46,950 nucleotides of DNA, from contig CANHQZ010000002.1 in the NCBI GenBank assembly GCA_947463125.1, positions 1 through 46,950 of the forward strand. Reading direction: 5' to 3'. The notes beneath the pieces were generated by a model. That model did no database searches and was not told the DNA's origin. It was given only the letters and a program-made list of their open reading frames with translations. Both the position numbers and the translations under genes were made by a program. The stretch comes from Flavobacteriales bacterium. Lineage in GTDB: Bacteria; Bacteroidota; Bacteroidia; NS11-12g; UBA955. This document shows positions 4,903-23,461 of the stretch, one piece after another (within the stretch, counting starts at the first letter, position 1; every line of letters begins with the position of its first letter).

Positions 4903-5423
4903 CAGATGATTTCTTGTTTGTTCAGAAAATCTTCATGGCCCAGTTTTTCGAGCCTTGTGGCTTTTTCCATTACCTCATCGCTGATGCGCTTTTTATAATC
5001 TTTAATTTTCTGCGCAATATTCTCATCCTGCGCTCCCAAAATCTGGGCTGCCATAATGCCGGCATTTCTGGCTCCATTGATAGCCATGGTGGCTACGGGC
5101 ACACCAGGGGGCATCTGCACAATGCTGTAGAGGCTGTCTAAACCGCTGAGGTTGCTGCTTTTTACAGGCACGCCAACCACCGGCAAATGCGTAAGACTGG
5201 CAACCATACCGGGTAGGTGCGCAGCACCACCGGCACCGGCAATGATAACCTTTATGCCCTTTTCAGGGGCCTTTGCTGCATAATCAACCATGCGCTGGGG
5301 TGTGCGGTGTGCAGAAACGATGGTCAGTTCGTATGAAATGCCAAAAAATTCGAGCATGCGCGCCGCTTCCTGCATTACAGGAAGATCGCTGTCGCTGCCC
5401 ATGATGATGCCTACTTTAGCCAT
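4902..5423 (-). CDS. purE: 5-(carboxyamino)imidazole ribonucleotide mutase
   Basis: Class I PurE converts N5-CAIR to CAIR in de novo purine synthesis. The 173-residue protein shows the class I signatures: GSDSDLPVM at 9-17, SAHRTP with the catalytic-type His, [21 protein letters not shown], and the [19 protein letters not shown] segment. The N-terminus [13 protein letters not shown] is standard and fixes the start. It overlaps the end of pssA by eight bases and is followed directly by the DUF3109 gene. purK, its usual partner, is not nearby. Confidence 0.97.
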
Positions 5424-6138
5424 TTTTCGATTGTGTTACAAAGTTCGCAATAATTGACCATAAAACATATACCGCTAAAAATGGGATACCTGCATATACC
5501 CCAAATACTGGAATACAAGCCAGTCCCAGCAGAGGAACAGCGGCTTTCCAAAGTAGCAGCGGATCTCCTTTTTTAAATTTTAACGACAGCATGGGCCAGT
5601 CAGAAACCATAAGGTAAGCAGCCAGCACGGGTGCAAAACTGAAAAAGTATGGATGCTCAAAAAATGCTTTAAACGGGCTCTCAGCTGTATTTTCGAATGC
5701 CAGAATCAATGACCCGAATGCGATGCCGGTAATGGGTGTTGGAACCCCCAGGAAGCCTGTTTTCTGGCGGGTGTCGATATTGAAATTTGCCAGTCTCCAG
5801 GCACCTGCCAGCGGCAGGGCAAGCCATGCATAGCGTGAAGAACAAAATCCATCGGGAATACAATATCCTTTTTGCAGTGTATAATGCAGCATGATAAGAC
5901 CGGGCAGCAGGGTAAATGTGATCAGATCGGCTAAGGAATCCAGCTGTTTTCCTAGCTCACCATCAGCGCCGAGCAGGCGTGCGGTAAAACCGTCTGCAAA
6001 ATCAAGAATTGCGGCCAGCCCCATGCAAATCAATATACTGTTCATGTCGCCTGCCATAAGTCTTTCGATACCAATTGCGCCACAGGCAAGGTTTCCGAGG
6101 GTCAGCAGATTGGGGAGGCTTTTCAGCAGTTCTTTCAT
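5416..6138 (-). CDS. pssA: CDP-diacylglycerol-serine O-phosphatidyltransferase
   Basis: Makes phosphatidylserine, the precursor of phosphatidylethanolamine, in the inner membrane. The CDP-alcohol phosphotransferase signature DGX2ARX8GX3DX3D is complete (DGFTAR, then G, D and D in GKQLDSLAD). About six hydrophobic segments follow an N-terminus typical of the family ([20 protein letters not shown]). The open frame extends to 6297, but that extension lies inside the upstream gene. The ATG at 6138 gives 240 residues, the usual length, and sits behind an exact -7 box at 6154-6161. The gene overlaps purE by eight bases. Confidence 0.94.
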
Positions 6139-6145
6139 CGTAAAA

Positions 6146-7999
6146 TCAAAGGTCAAAGTTAAAGAAAACCGAGAAACTGCTGCCGGTGACTTGTGTCTGC
6201 AATAGATTCCGTGCGTAATAGAGATTGGTTCTTGCCATAAACCAGTCGGGGGCTGAAATATCACGCAGATAGCCCGCTGCAACTCCTGCACTGGCATGTT
6301 TCATTATTTTGTAGTGCATTCTTACCTGAAAACCGACACCCAAGGCATGGTTGTTTGCAGTTTTTAAAAAGGCAAGATCCGGATTTAGAAAACCACCGGT
6401 ATACCTGCGGCATCGGATGGTTTGCGTGGCATGAAAAATCTGTGGTCCCAGGTCCATGCTGAATGTATTGGAAGTTATAAACCTCCAGCCTGCATAGGCT
6501 CCTGCAAACTGAAATAGGTAACGAATGGATATTTCATCTTTTCTTGCATACAGCTCATCAGAAATAGTAGAGCCCATTTGCAAGCCTGCGGTGAATTGCG
6601 GGTTATTCCAGTTCAAGCCAAATACAAAGGGGAGCTGGTTATACTTGGCGGAAGCAAGTGTTGGATTTATGTGGTTGGCCAGTGCTGCGGAATTATTAAG
6701 AAACAGGGTGTTTAACCCCAGTGTGAAACCGAATTTATTTCTTGAAGGCCCGGGTTTCTGGGTTTTTAAACGAAACTCACGAACAGCAATAAAGAAACTG
6801 AATCGGGAAGCAAGGATGGAATTTTGTTTCTCATCTAGCTGGGCAATGCTCACCGATTCTGCAGGTGCAAGCTGAAGTAGCCGTGATATTTCCTTTTGCA
6901 GGGCAGCATCACCTATTTCTGCTTCCGTATTTGCCTTGGTGGTATTGTTACGTTCTTCTTCATAAAAAATGCCAATACTCAATGTTCCGCTGTTCGAGCG
7001 AAAATAGCGTTCCTGCAGCCGGTGAGCCAGGCTTTGATAGGCATACCATCCGCAATCTCCATCCTGTTTAACATAGGCGGTATGGCATCTCCCGAATTGT
7101 CCGAAAAATTTTGCAGTTGTATCACTGTTAAGCAAACGGGTAAGTTTTCTGTACATGTTTTCTTCCCGCCAGGTATAATAAAATGCGCTGCTTCTGTATT
7201 GATTCCATTGCTTGTATTCACGCAGACCATTAATACCGGACTGAACTTCGGCATAACGGTTTCCTGTCCAGAATTTTAAGTCCTTATCCAGGCTGTCAAA
7301 ATGCTCCAGTATTACATCAATGCTTCGGTCGATGGAAAAAGGCTGACCGCTGCCCTGGTAGTATTCACGCTTTTGAGCGCTTTCAAATTCTTTAACGCCG
7401 CTGTATTTAAGCCATCCTGCTGCCTGATGCACAGCCTGAACCGCAGTATAAAGGCTTTCGGGTACTTTCGTTTTAGGCAGTAAGTCAGATAACCTCAATA
7501 ATGCAATGTCGTTAAATCTTTCAACATCAATCCCGTGTATCTGAATGCGTTTTTCGGCAGGCAGGGTAAGGTTCCATTCCCTGATGTCTTCCAGAATTTT
7601 CATATGCTCCACCGACGTAGTAGCCTGCAGGCAATACTTTTCCATTGTGTCAATCTCATTCACATACCGGTTTGCATACCATCCGCGGGCTTCACCCAAC
7701 TCCAGAAGCAGGTGTTTAACGCCTGCTTTTTCATGTAAAAAGCGCAGCAGTTTAAACTCAATCAGCCCATTGATAGCTACATGCCTGTGGTTCTCGCCGG
7801 ATATAAAAACCCTTTGTTCGGACAAAACACGTTGCAGTTGTTCAAAACCGGCAAAATCGTCAGACTTTTCGGTGTTGATTTTATAAAACGGATTGCCCGG
7901 CTCCGCCGCAGCCGAAGCAGGGATTTTCCGTTGCGAGTGAAGTTCTGAAATTAGGGTAGAACAGGCGGCAAAAAACAATATCAGGGTCTTTAATCTCAT
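6146..7999 (-). CDS. Secreted erythromycin-esterase-like domain fused to a C-terminal beta-barrel-like domain
   Basis: 617 residues with a signal peptide (about 1-22). Residues 60-410 resemble the erythromycin esterase (Ere)/TIKI-ChaN-like superfamily. GENH at 68-71 is followed by a helix and the strand HLLLE (Glu100), matching the family pattern GExxH...E. GIDVE follows at 156-160 and GRCHT at 303-307. The substrate is unknown; resistance to macrolides is not implied. From about residue 421 to the end the sequence alternates polar and hydrophobic residues in strand-like segments (FGFTLGLN, AGAYAGWRF, FSVFFNFDL), suggesting an outer-membrane beta-barrel or beta-sandwich. It overlaps the upstream paralogue by four bases (ATGA), so the two are co-translated. 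Confidence 0.7.
   Translation of the reverse strand: MRLKTLILFFAACSTLISELHSQRKIPASAAAEPGNPFYKINTEKSDDFAGFEQLQRVLSEQRVFISGENHRHVAINGLIEFKLLRFLHEKAGVKHLLLELGEARGWYANRYVNEIDTMEKYCLQATTSVEHMKILEDIREWNLTLPAEKRIQIHGIDVERFNDIALLRLSDLLPKTKVPESLYTAVQAVHQAAGWLKYSGVKEFESAQKREYYQGSGQPFSIDRSIDVILEHFDSLDKDLKFWTGNRYAEVQSGINGLREYKQWNQYRSSAFYYTWREENMYRKLTRLLNSDTTAKFFGQFGRCHTAYVKQDGDCGWYAYQSLAHRLQERYFRSNSGTLSIGIFYEEERNNTTKANTEAEIGDAALQKEISRLLQLAPAESVSIAQLDEKQNSILASRFSFFIAVREFRLKTQKPGPSRNKFGFTLGLNTLFLNNSAALANHINPTLASAKYNQLPFVFGLNWNNPQFTAGLQMGSTISDELYARKDEISIRYLFQFAGAYAGWRFITSNTFSMDLGPQIFHATQTIRCRRYTGGFLNPDLAFLKTANNHALGVGFQVRMHYKIMKHASAGVAAGYLRDISAPDWFMARTNLYYARNLLQTQVTGSSFSVFFNFDL
6154..6161 (-). promoter_or_regulatory. 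Bacteroidota -7 promoter box (TAACTTTG) of pssA
   Basis: Exact TAnnTTTG on the minus strand, 15 bases upstream of the pssA ATG and inside the last codons of the preceding gene. It would let pssA-purE-DUF3109 be transcribed separately from the upstream pair. Confidence 0.65.
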
Positions 8000-9789
8000 A
8001 ATTCAGCCTTCCTTTCTACATGTTTCTTTCGGGAAAGGTGCCAGCCCATAGAAAGGTTTACATAAATCTGATTACCCCTGAATTTGCCCATGGGCCCGCT
8101 GAACCGGTTGTTTACTCGCCAGCGTCTGTCGGAAATGTCCCAGCCGTATCCTGCTTCTGCCGAAAGGAAAAAACGCTGCAAGGTAATTATCCCTTTTACG
8201 TTTAAGCACATTGCCATTACAGGATTGACAGCCGCAGTCGGTAAAGTATATCTTGAAATGAAGACAGTGTCACTCAGCGTATTCGGATTATTTACGATAT
8301 GGTTCTGATAACTGAGGGCTGAGCCCACGCCAGCCTTCAGCCAGGGCTTTGCGGAATACAAATTGGTCATCCCTGAAAAGTATGTTCCCCAGTAATGATA
8401 GACTGATCCGGGAATTCTTGCCCGCTGAAAGAAGCCAATTTCGTAGTGGTTATTATCTAAATCCCAGCCTGACAGATTGATGCCATAATCAGGTACAATT
8501 TGTACTTTCGGTAAACCGTACGCTTCCATCAAACTGTTAAGCTCAAAAACATCAACGGCATGAATACCGGTAGTGGCACCAATGCTGAAAAGGGGAGTGT
8601 ATTTTGCCCCAGATGTCATTTTTGTTTCATCCATATCCGGAATCACTGATTTTGAATCAGAACCGCCACCCATGACAAGCGCAAACGTAAATGGCAATTG
8701 TTTTTCCGGCTTGTTAAAATGACATAAGGAGACTGATGACTGTGGAAGGCCAGATCGGATTTTCTGTAGTTCATTTTGAACAACTTTCGTTTCGTCTTCG
8801 GTATCGGCAGGTTCGTTGTAATATACTCCCAGGTTGAAAAACTGCCCGGAAATACTGCTGTCTTCGCTAAGTCTGCTGCAGACAGGAGAGAAATTATACA
8901 GATTACATTCACCCTGAAGCCATGTGTTTGATGCAAAGCAGCGGCCCATCATGCAGATGAATTTTTCACGGGGCAGCGTTTTAAAAATTCTGCTGATATT
9001 CTGTGATACCAGTTGCACCCTGAACGGGTCTTCCAGGGCAGTATTGAAAAGGGCATCATATCGAATTGCCGCTTTAAGGCTTTGCATCAACGATTCCATA
9101 CGGAACCATTCATCATCTCCCAGCCAGTTCTGATAGGATTCCTTCAGGGTATCAAAACCTGCTGCAAATTCGAGATAGGTGTTTTTTATAGAGAAAGGCG
9201 GGCTTTCACGGTCATTATCCGTTGTATCATTTTTAATTTGTTGGTAGCGAATGGCGCCTTGCAATGCTTCTATGGGAATCCTCAGTTTGTCCGGCGGAGT
9301 TTTATCCTTCAGCAAGTCATAGATTGCCAGGGCCGGTACTATCAGCTGGTTATCGGCATCAATACCGATAATGCGAATTTTAAGGCTATCCGGAACGCCT
9401 TCATTGAGCGTGTTAAGACGTTTGTAAAACAAAATATCCTGCTGGTTTAAAGCCAGCGATAAATTTGGCAAAACAGATACATCGTTTAGATACACCAGGC
9501 GATGCAACCATTCACCGCAAACAGATGAGACCGGAGCCATAAAATACCTGTAGCCGGCCTTGTTTTTTGCATAAGAAACCAGTTTTGTACTCACGGTGCG
9601 GGTGATTTCCGGGTATGACCGGTTTATGCCCATCACCATTAAACGATTGCTTTGCAGCATAGAATCAAGTATTTGCATTCCCCGAAAGTCGCGGGAGTCG
9701 GTGAGATTCAGAAATTGCCGGCCCGATTGTGCAAGCAGCGGAAAAACACCTGCTGCCAACAACGCAAAAAGCCCGCTTCTCAGATTCAT
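7996..9789 (-). CDS. Secreted paralogue of the esterase-like/beta-barrel protein, catalytic-type motifs lost
   Basis: 597 residues with a signal peptide (about 1-20, ending LLAQ). The layout matches the next gene: RLMVMG aligns with RVFISG, KNKAG with HEKAG, IIGIDAD with IHGIDVE, MGRC with FGRC. However, GENH is replaced by GINR (54-57), the strand-end Glu by FMAPV, and GRCH by GRCF. The residues expected to be catalytic in the Ere-like fold are therefore absent, and I infer a pseudoenzyme partner or a binding protein. The C-terminal third (from about residue 365) also has barrel-like alternating strands and ends in a basic tail. It is the first gene of the pair, 17 bases downstream of tag. 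Confidence 0.65.
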   Translation of the reverse strand: MNLRSGLFALLAAGVFPLLAQSGRQFLNLTDSRDFRGMQILDSMLQSNRLMVMGINRSYPEITRTVSTKLVSYAKNKAGYRYFMAPVSSVCGEWLHRLVYLNDVSVLPNLSLALNQQDILFYKRLNTLNEGVPDSLKIRIIGIDADNQLIVPALAIYDLLKDKTPPDKLRIPIEALQGAIRYQQIKNDTTDNDRESPPFSIKNTYLEFAAGFDTLKESYQNWLGDDEWFRMESLMQSLKAAIRYDALFNTALEDPFRVQLVSQNISRIFKTLPREKFICMMGRCFASNTWLQGECNLYNFSPVCSRLSEDSSISGQFFNLGVYYNEPADTEDETKVVQNELQKIRSGLPQSSVSLCHFNKPEKQLPFTFALVMGGGSDSKSVIPDMDETKMTSGAKYTPLFSIGATTGIHAVDVFELNSLMEAYGLPKVQIVPDYGINLSGWDLDNNHYEIGFFQRARIPGSVYHYWGTYFSGMTNLYSAKPWLKAGVGSALSYQNHIVNNPNTLSDTVFISRYTLPTAAVNPVMAMCLNVKGIITLQRFFLSAEAGYGWDISDRRWRVNNRFSGPMGKFRGNQIYVNLSMGWHLSRKKHVERKAEL

Positions 9790-10385: not shown

Positions 10386-11273
10386 TTACACAATATTCAG
10401 TACCTGTTCCTTGATTTGTTCCAGTTTTTCCTTCATCAGCACAACGGCCTGCTGCATGGGGAAATGGTTGCTTTTAACGCCCATGGTATTCATTTCACGG
10501 CCCATTTCCTGTGCAATGAAATTGAGTTTTCTTCCCAGCGGTTCTTTTTTCAGGCACGCATCAAAATAATCCAGATGCTGCATGAGTCGTTGTTTTTCTT
10601 CGGCAATATCCCATTTTTCCATGTAGAGCAGTATTTCCTGCTCCAGGCGGCTCGGGTCTGCTATGTTGTCGCGTACATGCTCAGCCACCGAATTATTGAT
10701 CTTGTTTCTCAGGTTTTGTCTGCGTGGCTGTTCTTCAGATTCAACAACGGCAAGCTGTTTACGGATTTGTGCGGAAGCTTCGGTCAGTTTGGTCAATATG
10801 GCCTGACCTTCCTGTTTGCGGAATTGAAGCAGCTTTTCAACTGCGTCGGCAGCGGTTTTTAATATGCATTTTTTCCCTTCTTCGGTTAAGGTTTTTTCGG
10901 CATTACCTATCACATCCTGCATGCGGATTATCTGGCTGAAAGGATCGCGAAACTCAAGATTCAACGACTGGCTAAGGTTGTTTAGTTTGTCGAGGTAAGC
11001 GCTTGCAAGTGCATGGTTGATATTGATTTCCGGCGCGTTTTCATCACCGGTAAATTCAATGTTGAACATCATGGTTACCGAACCTCGTTCCAGTTTTTCC
11101 TGAAGCATTTTGCGTATTGCGGCATCCAGTTCATACAGGAATCTGGGTAAGCGAATATCCAGGTCAAGGTAACGCCCGTTCAGGGATTTGACTTCACAAA
11201 CAACTTTAATCCCGGCATCGCTGGCCTCGGAGCGGCCAAAACCGGTCATACTTTGAATGGCAATGTTTTCCAA
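10386..11273 (-). CDS. yicC: YicC-family endoribonuclease
   Basis: YicC proteins are cytoplasmic endoribonucleases implicated in RNA turnover. The 295-residue frame has the family start SMTGFGR, then NGRYLDLDIRLPRFL, a long charged helical middle, and the C-terminal hallmark QEMGREMNTMGVKSN. The start is uncertain. The longest frame uses TTG at 11273, which puts eight residues before SMTGFGR. The first ATG in frame, at 11249, begins exactly at MTGFGR, whereas family members usually have two or three residues before it. It runs opposite to the gene at 11361. Confidence 0.9.
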   Translation of the reverse strand: MENIAIQSMTGFGRSEASDAGIKVVCEVKSLNGRYLDLDIRLPRFLYELDAAIRKMLQEKLERGSVTMMFNIEFTGDENAPEININHALASAYLDKLNNLSQSLNLEFRDPFSQIIRMQDVIGNAEKTLTEEGKKCILKTAADAVEKLLQFRKQEGQAILTKLTEASAQIRKQLAVVESEEQPRRQNLRNKINNSVAEHVRDNIADPSRLEQEILLYMEKWDIAEEKQRLMQHLDYFDACLKKEPLGRKLNFIAQEMGREMNTMGVKSNHFPMQQAVVLMKEKLEQIKEQVLNIV

Positions 11274-15155: not shown

Positions 15156-17075
15156 TCACAACCTTTGAAGCAATTCTTTTGCTTCCCGGTTGGCAGGTTG
15201 TATTCTCAGTGCTTCGTTGAGCTGCATTCTCGCCAGATCTTTATTTCCCACCTTCAGGTATATTTCGGCCAGATACAGTCTGGCATTTTCATTGTCGGGG
15301 AATAGTGAAACAACCTTCTTTAAATGGACAAGGGCCTTGCCGCTATTGCCATTGAGCCATTCAGCCACGCCGAGGTTTAATAAAGCCAGTTCATGCTTGC
15401 TTTGCTGTTTTAAAGTTTGCGACAGTATATCAATAGCCTCGCTAAACCGCTTAAGGCGAATCAGCACATTGCCCAGCTCTGCTGCGAAATCTGCCTGTAA
15501 GGGCATCTTCTCCACTGCGGTGCGATACCATTCCGCCGCATTTTCGGTCTTCATGCGTTTGTCGTAAGCCTTGGCTGTGCGGTAAGCGGTCCAAGCAGAT
15601 ATTTCGGCAGAATTCAATTCGGTTGAAATGGCAATAATTTTATCCCATTGTCCATGCGCATAGTGGTAGTGAACCTCCTGTTCTTTATTGCCATTATCAA
15701 GCAGTTTGCCCGCTTGGTTTAGATATACTGGGTTTGCGTCAAATTTCTCGAACCACGTAAGGTAAGCCTGCAATTGCATGGCGGGTTTCGGTGAGCGCTG
15801 GTTTACGGAATATAAGCCCACCGGCTTGCCCGGATTTAGCTGATTTTGTGCTGCTGGTTTTCGTATGTAATGGTCATGGACGGTAACATGGGGAATGTCG
15901 GCAGTACCGCTTTTGGGCATGTGGCATCCAACGCAGTTGTTACCGGCTTTTTGAATTTCATGCGCCGGTGCGCGGCAATTCAGTTTGGCTGCATTTCCTC
16001 CAGGGCTGTGGCAATTGTTGCAAGCTTTGTTGAACAGCTCTGTATTGGTTTTGCGTACGCTCACATGCGGGTTGTGGCAGGTTATGCACGTTAGGTTGAG
16101 TTTTCCGCCTTCTTTGTTGGAAACATTGAAACATTTGCTCATTTGCAATCGTTCGGCGTGCCCCGCCATGTAAAATGCCTTTCCATTTTCATGGATGGGC
16201 ATGTAGATTTCAAAAATGCTGTCAAGGTGCATGCCGGGACGGAAATCAGTGAACTTTTTACCGGGTTTCAGTACATTATTGCCCTGAAGATGGCAGCGCT
16301 GGCAAATATCTACCTGAAGTTTCCATGGCAAACGCGACGGGTTCACAATGGTTCTGTCTGCCATTTTATTTACATCCACAATGATGCCTTTACGTTTTTC
16401 AGCCACATGCAACTCTCCGGGACCATGGCATCTTTCGCAGTCTATACCTTGAGGAGTGTGTGTGAACTTATTGATACTGCCTTCTTCTACTTTGGGCATA
16501 CCATTGTGACAGCTCATACACTCAACATCAATTTTGCGTGAAAAACCGGTATTGGTGGTTTCATAGCCTGGTGGTAAATCCCATTTTCCGGATTGCGTGT
16601 AAAAGGTTAAAGGTGCCTGAAACCAATAGTCACCGTCGCGCCAAAAATGACTGTTGGTATGGTGTCCGCTACCTACGATGTGTGTAATTTGCTCGGTGCG
16701 GCTGTGGGTAGTGTCGCCATTTTTTAAACGGTATTCACGGATAAAGTACTTGCCACCGGCGCTGAAAGGTAGGTAGTACAGGTCTTTCTTAGCATCGTAT
16801 ACCGGTTTTACATTGTTCCAAACAGCTTTGCTTCGGCCGGCAGAGGCTTCGCCAAAACTGCTGCCCATGCCGGTTTCAATAAAAGTATGATAGTGATCGG
16901 CATGACATTCCCTGCAGGTGGCAATACCGACATAATCTACGGTATCCTGTAAATTTAGGAAAAACGCCGTATCCGTTTTTCCCTGTTTGCTGTCAGAGCA
17001 TGTGCTCATGGAAAAAAGGAGCGTAAAAACGCATAAACCAAGCCAGATAAAAGGTATGATTTTTCTACCGCTCAT
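15156..17075 (-). CDS. Seven-heme c-type cytochrome with C-terminal TPR repeats
   Basis: 639 residues. An N-terminal export signal ends near STC (Cys26), possibly a lipobox. Seven CXXCH heme sites are visible, starting at residues 54, 186, 213, 258, 330, 352 and 381, so this is a periplasmic or surface multiheme electron-transfer protein. CITCHNPH and CVGCHMPKSG are typical of the cytochrome c554/NrfA-like multiheme superfamily. From about residue 490 there are four or so TPR helices (AEWYRTAVEKMP, AIDILSQTLKQ, ALVHLKKVVSLFPDN), which suggest docking to a partner. The partner and the substrate are unknown. It is last in a compact operon, 16 bases after the secreted protein at 17092. Confidence 0.88.
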   Translation of the reverse strand: MSGRKIIPFIWLGLCVFTLLFSMSTCSDSKQGKTDTAFFLNLQDTVDYVGIATCRECHADHYHTFIETGMGSSFGEASAGRSKAVWNNVKPVYDAKKDLYYLPFSAGGKYFIREYRLKNGDTTHSRTEQITHIVGSGHHTNSHFWRDGDYWFQAPLTFYTQSGKWDLPPGYETTNTGFSRKIDVECMSCHNGMPKVEEGSINKFTHTPQGIDCERCHGPGELHVAEKRKGIIVDVNKMADRTIVNPSRLPWKLQVDICQRCHLQGNNVLKPGKKFTDFRPGMHLDSIFEIYMPIHENGKAFYMAGHAERLQMSKCFNVSNKEGGKLNLTCITCHNPHVSVRKTNTELFNKACNNCHSPGGNAAKLNCRAPAHEIQKAGNNCVGCHMPKSGTADIPHVTVHDHYIRKPAAQNQLNPGKPVGLYSVNQRSPKPAMQLQAYLTWFEKFDANPVYLNQAGKLLDNGNKEQEVHYHYAHGQWDKIIAISTELNSAEISAWTAYRTAKAYDKRMKTENAAEWYRTAVEKMPLQADFAAELGNVLIRLKRFSEAIDILSQTLKQQSKHELALLNLGVAEWLNGNSGKALVHLKKVVSLFPDNENARLYLAEIYLKVGNKDLARMQLNEALRIQPANREAKELLQRL

Positions 17076-20136: not shown

Positions 20137-20772
20137 TCAGAGCGGTTTTTTCCGTTTTTTTCTTTTTGGTTCCTTTGAAGGGGGCGGTTCCTGGTCAGGT
20201 ACATCAGGTTCAATTGCGGTACTGTCGGCATTTTCATTGTCATCTGCCTGATTCTTTGCCACTACCAGATCGATACGCGTTCCTTTGGTTATCATTTTAC
20301 CTGCCGGAACTTCCATTCCATTGATGGTTTGCCTGGTGACCAGATTATTGCCAATTTCATCATAAACATACTCTATGTTGCCCAGTTCAAGTCCATTGTT
20401 TTTGATGAGGACTTTTGCCAGCGTGAGGCTTTGATCCACAAGCATTGGCATTTTCACCCTGGGTTTATCGAGAGCATTCACAACCAGATAAATGATGCGG
20501 TTGGGCTTTACATCGCTGCCTGCAGGCGGATCCTGTTCGGTAACGGCATCTCTCTTCATGTTCTCCAGGTATACAGAATCTGTGATTTCGTAACGTAGTC
20601 CCTCATCATCCAGTTTTTCAATGGCTTCCTGCATATTCATGCCAACAATGGCGGGAACTTTAACTGCCACGTTATGGTTGGTGAACCAGTTCATCCACAA
20701 AAAAAGCAACAGTATAAAAACACCTGTAGCCGCAATTCCGAGCCCGATATTGAAGAGCCAGTTCTTATTCAT
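20137..20772 (-). CDS. Membrane-anchored protein with two PASTA domains
   Basis: 211 residues from the ATG at 20772, since the longer frame overlaps the ligase gene too far. A single transmembrane helix (about 6-27, LFNIGLGIAATGVFILLLFLW) is followed by two PASTA domains (VKVPAIVGMNMQEAIEKL and VKMPMLVDQSLTLAKVL) facing the periplasm, then an acidic-to-basic linker ending KRKKRKKPL. PASTA domains bind muropeptides or beta-lactam-like ligands in other bacteria. No kinase domain is present, unlike PknB-type proteins. It overlaps the Ddl gene by eight bases, a pairing that points to a cell wall role. Confidence 0.88.
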   Translation of the reverse strand: MNKNWLFNIGLGIAATGVFILLLFLWMNWFTNHNVAVKVPAIVGMNMQEAIEKLDDEGLRYEITDSVYLENMKRDAVTEQDPPAGSDVKPNRIIYLVVNALDKPRVKMPMLVDQSLTLAKVLIKNNGLELGNIEYVYDEIGNNLVTRQTINGMEVPAGKMITKGTRIDLVVAKNQADDNENADSTAIEPDVPDQEPPPSKEPKRKKRKKPL

Positions 20773-23461
20773 GCTTCGATGATAACGAATCCTTACCAAA
20801 TTTTAATATATCCCTTATAAAATCAAACGGTTTATATCCATTTATGGCAGCCTGATGGTAAATACAGGTTGCCGGTGTCATGCCGGGAAGACTGTTTACC
20901 TCAATAATCCAGGTCTCCACACTTCCGTCTGCCATGATTTTTACAAATGCATCAATACGGCAATAGCCGGTCACATCCAGGCATTTTGCCACGGCTTTCA
21001 GCGTTTTGCGCACCTCAGCACTGATTCGTGCCTGTTCTGCCGCATCCCTGCTAAACCGCGAGGGAGTGATGTTTTGCCCTTGACCTGCCAGAAATTTCTC
21101 TTCCAGGCTTAATATTTCACTTTCCGCCAGGGCTTCACTGGGTTCAAATACTTCATAGCGAATGCCATCTGTTTCCCTGTGGGTAATCATTCCGCCGGTA
21201 ATTTCCAGAAACCTAACCGCGTCCCCTTTATCAATGAATTTTTCGATCAGCAGTTCACTTTTAACCGGGAATTCTTCGTTTGGTGTTAAACCCAGTTTTT
21301 GTCGGATTGCGGTATCGTCATCTCCGGGATTTCTAAAAATTCCGGAGATGAAGTGGTGCAGTTCTTCGGCAGTTTTCACCTTACGCACCGCGGCACTGCA
21401 GCCATCATCAGCAGGTTTGGCAATGAGCGGCAGCCCAAATCGACTGATGATTTCCATTTCAACCGCTTCGGCATTATTCAACCAGTCTGCTTTACTCAGC
21501 ATGCGGTGATCGGCCACCAGAAACCCGCTTTCGCGCAACTTTTGGTTGGTGATAAATTTATTGATGGTGATGGCCGCGCTATGCTGTCGGCTGCCATTGT
21601 AAAACAAGCCGTGTTTTTCCAGCTCTTGCTGTAGGGTTCCATCCTCACCTGGTCTTCCGTGCAGGGCAATAAATACGCCCGAAACCAATTCTGCCAGTTC
21701 AGAAAATGTAATTTCTCTGGGTGCTGAAAGCATTCCCTCAGGATTGTACCGCTCTGTGATGTGTGCAGCCTCATGGGCAATGGAATCCAGCACAGGGTTG
21801 TGTTCGAAATGCAACACCTTCTCTCGGATATCATCGGCATTGTCTTTCAGCATGATGTTAAGCGGCAATAAAAACATGCGCAGATTATCGGCGCTCCCGG
21901 TCAGGAAAACGGGCACAGGCTCATATTCCGCACTGCTGCTGAGTTTTTCATAAATATTGCGTCCGCTTTCCATGCTGATATGGCGCTCATAACTGTAGCC
22001 ACCCATGATAACCGCAATTTTTTGTTGTTGAGATTGCCCGGATGAAAGTGCATTAATCCGCTCGTCGAGCAAGTTTAATATGTTTTTCAGACCCTGCGAA
22101 CGAGGCTGGGTTTCGATACGCTCTGCAAGCGAATTGCGAATGATAAAAGTTAGAAAACGCGCCGGATTTAAGCCAATTTCAGCCGCCTGGTGAAAGAAGA
22201 AGCTGCTGGGCATCATGCCGCTGGTGGTGTTTGGGTCGTTCAGGAAAACCTCATTGTCGTCCGAAACGAAACCATCAATTCGGGCATATACATTGAACCC
22301 AAAGAAATCGTAAAGCGCCGTGCAGGCGGTCCTGATTTCCTCAAGCAACTCAGCCGAACCCGGCATGGGCGTTATTTTGTGGCTCAATCCCGGCAGGTAT
22401 TTGCTGCGATAATCGAAATAATCGGTTTTCTTCTTAATTTCGGTAGGGGGCAGGGCAATAGGATTGCCGGCATCATCGCGAATCACAATGCAGCTGAATT
22501 CGCGTCCCTCAATGAATTCTTCAAAAACCACTTCGGTTTCTGCGTCGGGTGATTCAAGCAAAACAGAGCTATCCGGCTCTGACAACAGACTGTTGATTCG
22601 GTTCAGCAAATCATCAGGCATAAAACACCATTCTCCGTTCAGCTGCAAAGGCAGTCCAAGTCCACTGCGGATATCGGTAATTTCCTTAATCTGGTTTATA
22701 CGGTCCTCTTCAGTTAAAATAGACCATTCCTCAAAATCAAATTGTATGCGAAAGAATGCCAGATCTACGGCTTTTTCAAAAGTGCGGTAATCCGTGTTTT
22801 TCAGCACACTCACGCCCAGAGAACTGCCTTGATTGGCGGGCTTTACCACAAAGTGTTCCTTGAATTCGCGGTTGTAAAAGAAAAACAAATTTCCCTTTTC
22901 TTTTTCGTCAGCATTAAGCCATGCATCGCGTTTCAGCGTCTGGTAATGGTTTACATACAAACCGGCTCTTTCCTGAAAATCTTTTTGACGGGCCTTGTTC
23001 ATTCCCAATGCGGAAGCAAAAATTCCTGATCCCGAGTAGGGTATATTGTACCATTCCAGCAATCCCTGAATGGTTCCGTCTTCGCCAAGTGTTCCGTGCA
23101 GTGCCAGAAAAGCAAAATCAATATGGTTTTTTAATTCGCCGGCTGTTACTGTTTTACCAAGGGCAGAAAGCATTTGGTGCTGCAGTTCCTCGCTTGGGTT
23201 GAGGCTTTCTGCATACACCTGAAATCCGTGGGGTAAGTCAGGCAGAAATGATGCCGGTGGATAGAAATCGCGGATACTGCCTTTGTAAACGTATTCCCAG
23301 TTCAGGATAACAAAATTGCCAAAAGAATCCACAAAAATGGGTACGGCCTCAAACAGGTTTTTATCCAGATTGTCATAAACAGTGCGGCCGCCGGCAAAGG
23401 AAACTTCCCGTTCGCGTGAAGCACCTCCAAAGAAAATTCCGACACGGATTTTGGATGTCAT
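20765..23461 (-). CDS. Tandem-duplicated D-alanine-D-alanine ligase (two ATP-grasp units in one chain)
   Basis: 898 residues, more than twice the usual 310-360 of Ddl, which makes the D-Ala-D-Ala dipeptide for peptidoglycan. Two complete ATP-grasp copies are visible. Copy 1 (about 5-445): GGASREREVS, LHGTLGEDGT at 121, KPANQGSSLGV at 208, EEFIEG at 314, ARID at 393, then DPNTTSGM at 409 in place of the usual EVNTxPGM. Copy 2 (about 480-890): GGYSYERHIS, LHGRPGEDGT at 600, KPADDGCSAAV at 682 in place of KPxxxGSSxGV, CRID at 834, and a canonical EVNSLPGM at 854. Copy 1 also has an insert of about 70 residues before EEFIEG. The frame is continuous, and an exact -7 box sits five bases upstream of the ATG. 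Confidence 0.88.
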   Translation of the reverse strand: MTSKIRVGIFFGGASREREVSFAGGRTVYDNLDKNLFEAVPIFVDSFGNFVILNWEYVYKGSIRDFYPPASFLPDLPHGFQVYAESLNPSEELQHQMLSALGKTVTAGELKNHIDFAFLALHGTLGEDGTIQGLLEWYNIPYSGSGIFASALGMNKARQKDFQERAGLYVNHYQTLKRDAWLNADEKEKGNLFFFYNREFKEHFVVKPANQGSSLGVSVLKNTDYRTFEKAVDLAFFRIQFDFEEWSILTEEDRINQIKEITDIRSGLGLPLQLNGEWCFMPDDLLNRINSLLSEPDSSVLLESPDAETEVVFEEFIEGREFSCIVIRDDAGNPIALPPTEIKKKTDYFDYRSKYLPGLSHKITPMPGSAELLEEIRTACTALYDFFGFNVYARIDGFVSDDNEVFLNDPNTTSGMMPSSFFFHQAAEIGLNPARFLTFIIRNSLAERIETQPRSQGLKNILNLLDERINALSSGQSQQQKIAVIMGGYSYERHISMESGRNIYEKLSSSAEYEPVPVFLTGSADNLRMFLLPLNIMLKDNADDIREKVLHFEHNPVLDSIAHEAAHITERYNPEGMLSAPREITFSELAELVSGVFIALHGRPGEDGTLQQELEKHGLFYNGSRQHSAAITINKFITNQKLRESGFLVADHRMLSKADWLNNAEAVEMEIISRFGLPLIAKPADDGCSAAVRKVKTAEELHHFISGIFRNPGDDDTAIRQKLGLTPNEEFPVKSELLIEKFIDKGDAVRFLEITGGMITHRETDGIRYEVFEPSEALAESEILSLEEKFLAGQGQNITPSRFSRDAAEQARISAEVRKTLKAVAKCLDVTGYCRIDAFVKIMADGSVETWIIEVNSLPGMTPATCIYHQAAINGYKPFDFIRDILKFGKDSLSSKHE

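Follow-up and report, generated by a model that had tools for sequence, protein, structure and literature searches.

Why would a bacterium keep, directly upstream of a gene for a putative hydrolase, a related gene whose product carries other residues at most of the catalytic positions? This question is raised by two minus-strand genes, here termed U (upstream) and D (downstream), in a 46,950-nucleotide stretch of a Flavobacteriales genome (contig CANHQZ010000002.1), the whole of which is referred to as the window. The features below were located from the sequence (signal peptides) and from AlphaFold (AF2) models with DSSP and Foldseek (domains and barrels).

7996-9789, minus strand: U, ORF of 597 aa with signal peptide, Ere-like domain and 8-strand barrel; pseudoenzyme-like paralogue
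6146-7999, minus strand: D, ORF of 617 aa with signal peptide, Ere-like domain and 8-strand barrel; catalytic-type paralogue
7996-7999, minus strand: ATGA start/stop overlap of 4 bases, coupling U and D
Upstream of the ATGA overlap, minus strand: Shine-Dalgarno-like stretch AGAAAGGAAGG
9730-9789, minus strand: U signal peptide, residues 1-20, cleavage before Q21
7934-7999, minus strand: D signal peptide, residues 1-22, cleavage before Q23
8671-9717, minus strand: U Ere-like alpha/beta domain, residues about 25-373
6779-7885, minus strand: D Ere-like alpha/beta domain, residues about 39-407
8032-8595, minus strand: U 8-strand beta-barrel, residues 399-586, with OmpA-like short turns and long loops
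6152-6736, minus strand: D 8-strand beta-barrel, residues 422-616

Architecture and relatives of the two proteins

U and D are paralogues (23% identity over 370 aa, E = 4e-27, BLASTP), and the two open reading frames with their ATGA overlap agree with the original prediction of a co-translated pair. Secretion had been proposed as well, and each protein starts with a Sec signal peptide whose cleavage site is followed by Gln, in line with the Bacteroidetes Q-rule (PMC5837995); in alignments of homologues, Q21 of U and Q23 of D are each conserved in 90% or more.

Searched singly against Pfam, neither U nor D had a match up to E = 10, and both hence fall below the PF05139 gathering cut-off. PF05139 was matched by 13 of 28 D homologues (best 7.4e-11), D itself matched the NCBIfam EreB model at 7.2e-6, and a profile of D homologues found Bcr135 (2RAD/3B55) as its best PDB match (4e-10), together with 2QGM and EreC (1.3e-7). 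In Foldseek searches with the AF2 monomer models (mean pLDDT 89 for D and 86 for U), the N-terminal halves matched EreC at 2.1e-9 (D) and 1.1e-10 (U), with modest TM-scores to Ere structures of about 0.5-0.6 over the target. These searches uphold the suggested Ere link; matches to ChaN were weak (2g5g at E = 1.5e-3 for U by Foldseek; PF04187 at E = 0.042 in one D homologue), and Ere stood well above ChaN in both sequence and fold searches.

D has in common with EreA, EreB and EreC (PF05139; PDB 6XCQ, 6XCS) the alpha/beta core and the equivalents of E47, E78, R261 and H289. Unlike these enzymes, U and D are exported proteins with an outer-membrane barrel attached; the window copies fall under the Pfam cut-off, and the pair includes an inactive paralogue. 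Bcr135 and Bcr136 (PDB 3B55, 2RAD, 2QGM) share the Ere-like fold, but their matched structures lack the barrel of U and D, and we know of no paired pseudoenzyme for them. ChaN and TIKI may share the superfamily fold, with weak matches only. The pair is not the sole Ere-fold member of its genome, because a separate, ordinary PF05139 protein is encoded outside the window (G000:C11:1272-2327, minus strand; 361 bits, far over the cut-off).

The C-terminal half of D matched OmpA in Foldseek (3.1e-7), and that of U matched OprF (2.4e-6) and OmpA (1.8e-5). DSSP assigned eight antiparallel strands to each model; the turns that join strands 2-3, 4-5 and 6-7 are short, and most of the other connections are long loops. 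This is the usual outer-membrane topology, in which both termini are periplasmic, so the Ere-like domains of U and D are predicted to be periplasmic too. The models thus reproduce the anticipated fold of two halves in both proteins, an Ere-like N-terminal half and an 8-strand C-terminal half, and make the proposed outer-membrane location likely. Strand number and topology resemble those of OmpA, OprF, OmpX and OmpW; however, the soluble domain of OmpA follows its barrel, whereas in U and D it precedes the barrel and is enzyme-like. The autotransporter esterase EstA (3KVN) has the same order, an N-terminal esterase and a C-terminal barrel, but its esterase fold is unrelated and its barrel larger; the EstA passenger is surface-exposed, whereas the 8-strand barrels of U and D imply the periplasm. 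The literature searched describes neither an Ere-barrel fusion nor the U-D pair.

Catalytic positions in D and U

The EreC mechanism (PMC7979712) has H50 as the base, positioned by E47; the water is held by E78 and H289, and stabilisation of the transition state falls to R261. The corresponding positions in D and U are as follows.

7787-7798, minus strand: D GENH, residues 68-71, equivalents of EreC E47 and of the base H50, with the H one residue earlier
7700-7702, minus strand: D E100, equivalent of EreC E78, kept in 69/69
7166-7168, minus strand: D R278, equivalent of EreC R261 as assigned by motif, kept in 70/70
7082-7093, minus strand: D GRCH, residues 303-306, with H306 the equivalent of EreC H289, 70/70
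9619-9630, minus strand: U GINR, residues 54-57, at the GENH position in the alignment
8935-8946, minus strand: U GRCF, residues 282-285, at the GRCH position in the alignment

The full set of E69, H71, E100, R278 and H306 is near-invariant in 70 D homologues across Bacteroidota; E69 and H71 occur in all 68 that have letters at those positions, and C305 and C316 are both invariant (70/70). By analogy with EreC, we infer that D is a hydrolase, which would be of the metal-independent, water-activating Ere type, with H71 as the base and E69, E100, H306 and R278 around the water. In an ungapped profile alignment, D has the spacing E-x-H (GExH) where Ere has E-x-x-H (GExxH); with H71 one residue off EreC H50, the catalytic geometry of D is only putative. 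GExH-type spacing is also that of ChaN/TIKI. Together with the weak ChaN matches already mentioned, the spacing in D would suit a reading in which U and D are not enzymes but ligand-binding proteins of the outer membrane, comparable to ChaN, a heme-binding member of the superfamily. We regard this as rather improbable, given that the five Ere catalytic positions are nearly invariant in D and that Ere ranks far ahead of ChaN as a relative.

The U of the window has I, R, P and F at the equivalents of E69, H71, E100 and H306, and retains R278 and the cysteine pair. The motif contrasts originally drawn between GENH and GINR and between GRCH and GRCF align as described; that between HLLLE and FMAPV does not, as HLLLE of D aligns to YFMAP of U and E100 faces P86 rather than V. 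Across lineages the losses in U are graded, from a single residue to an unrecognisable active site. In the G017 genome, U has lost H71 (GENF) and kept E69, E100, R278 and H306. H306 is also kept in the U copies of G001 and G006, which have Q, S, A and I, K, P, respectively, at E69/H71/E100; the U of G013 has V and E at E69/H71, keeps E100 and carries E in place of H306. A uniform loss of H71 from every U was considered and is ruled out by L073 (G004), whose U keeps H71 alone of the four, with E69, E100 and H306 lost. Close U copies, where they can be aligned, retain the equivalents of C305 and C316, and in distant copies, where the motif is unrecognisable, the barrel and the overall profile homology persist.

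None of the U copies among 34 pairs plus G017 has the full catalytic set, and D always has it. A U copy with the motif residues, the finding that would have spoken against the pseudoenzyme reading, was thus absent from this sample, and at the level of sequence the upstream copy appears to be a pseudoenzyme, as first suggested. The asymmetry between an apparently active and an inactive member is not chance, because it was seen again in every homologous pair examined.

Distribution, origin and selection

Named genomes were scanned and yielded 80 loci, almost all of them from genomes labelled Bacteroidota MAGs. In 34 sets, including the window, U lies directly upstream of D, with junctions of -94 to +4 bases that are mostly ATGA; G017 has its U in this position as well. 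In most Bacteroidota, D is present on its own. The U copies form one clade in the tree. In a tree of neighbour genes the pair-bearing loci also form one clade, throughout which U is retained with no visible loss; the pair is thus conserved together in related genomes, a point put up for checking at the outset. On the sequence evidence, the simplest reading is that one in-place tandem duplication explains all pairs. One apparent single inside the pair clade (L095 2421-6758) has U and D each in two overlapping-frame pieces, most likely from assembly frameshifts. Two loci outside that clade (L088 and L089) have the order yicC-D-pssA-purE without U, probably the arrangement before duplication.

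Six divergent U copies had first been chosen by adjacency, which made their inclusion in the profile circular, and all U copies were then scored against a D-only profile, in which the U of L135 was near noise (E = 0.05). We also considered, and rejected, that the very divergent U copies had undergone a domain swap, since profile-profile alignment shows near full-length homology for most groups; this homology is weaker for the L099/L104 and L135 U groups.

The dN/dS values were 0.06-0.32 for U and 0.04-0.33 for D, so U is under purifying selection near that on D and is hence a working protein. The greater divergence of U than of D would fit a duplicate in decay, or a pair created by misassembly, but this is already contradicted by dN/dS well below 1, by frames that are open throughout and by the repetition of the arrangement in dozens of independent MAGs; we give this reading almost no weight. 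Strong purifying selection, together with the retention of the R278, C305 and C316 equivalents in close U copies, would also be expected had U neofunctionalised into an enzyme that works with different residues. Yet the residues at the catalytic positions of U vary by lineage (I/R/P/F, Q/S/A/H, V/E/E/E, E/F/E/H), a pattern expected if catalytic constraint was relaxed but not if all copies shared a single new active site, and a neofunctionalised U is therefore, in our judgment, quite unlikely.

A possible complex and its setting

In one genome (G021; L150 8287-11580, corresponding to G021:C21:23286-26579), U and D form a single open frame of 1098 aa that runs to the contig end, in the order U, an A/S/T-rich linker and the D N-terminal domain with GENH; D's own signal peptide is absent. 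Codon usage in the linker is of the coding type in the fused frame only, and D continues on another contig with a 321-base overlap at 98% identity. As a single, contig-broken MAG, G021 may reflect an assembly error, and a wider search gave no further U-D fusions. Taken at face value, the frame would place the D N-terminal domain, coming after the U barrel, in the periplasm, and it implies that U and D can work 1:1.

The ATGA coupling, the co-retention and this one fusion suggest that U and D form a physical complex. The original prediction had called such a complex obligate, which is too strong as a general statement, since D stands alone in most Bacteroidota and U is thus unnecessary for a D-type protein to exist; at most, the word could apply within the pair-bearing clade. 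Alternatively, U could function on its own in the outer membrane, as a binding or structural protein that makes no contact with D and sits beside it by operon inheritance only. The conserved genes around the pair (yicC, pssA and purE) have housekeeping roles that are not obviously connected, and the many solitary D genes point the same way; however, U and D are coupled by ATGA and retained 1:1 at every locus of the pair clade, and in G021 they are fused in frame. We consider an independent U unlikely, though not negligibly so.

The explanation that we favour, and hold to be probable, is an outer-membrane, periplasm-facing hydrolase D with a pseudoenzyme partner U, likely as a 1:1 heteromer. 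Sec would export both proteins, and the OmpA-type barrel of eight strands would insert each in the outer membrane and hold its Ere/TIKI-fold domain at the periplasmic side. U would have arisen from D by one tandem duplication, lost its catalytic residues and been kept as a non-catalytic partner, most likely giving the heteromer a structural, substrate-binding or regulatory surface. The data suggest that U and D are a two-part enzyme, previously undescribed.

As to a substrate, the neighbouring genes offer a weak lead.

5416-6138, minus strand: pssA (CDP-diacylglycerol-serine O-phosphatidyltransferase, phosphatidylserine synthase), named from sequence; its start lies 7 bases after D
10386-11273, minus strand: yicC, conserved upstream neighbour, in 30/33 pairs

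All genes from yicC through purE run in the same direction. In each of the 33 pairs other than that of the window, the gene after D is pssA, as it is in 12 of the 46 singles, seven of which had no yicC and purE found nearby; in the sister family, the neighbour genes differ. An envelope-lipid substrate or role, drawn from the pssA linkage alone, is speculative, and the linkage may be inherited synteny. With pssA in the operon, we entertain only tentatively, and as a good deal less probable than the heteromer itself, that the Ere/TIKI-fold hydrolase and its pseudoenzyme twin work at the periplasmic face, with envelope lipids, related to phosphatidylethanolamine or otherwise, as their substrates.

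Most of what is known about proteins of the Ere fold concerns antibiotic-resistance esterases. The D family would represent a widespread Bacteroidota branch of this fold, built into the outer membrane via an OmpA-type barrel; within the branch, one clade carries a tandem duplicate in which catalysis appears to have been lost step by step while the duplicate itself was never lost. Since present-day genomes still carry the intermediate stages, the path by which a pseudoenzyme subunit evolved is directly traceable and testable here.

Two further ORFs of the window were noted, both on the minus strand. The one at 20765-23461 (898 aa) reads as two tandem D-Ala-D-Ala-ligase-type (ATP-grasp) domains, and that at 15156-17075 resembles, by eye, a secreted multihaem cytochrome c with several CxxCH motifs and a repeat-rich C-terminal part.
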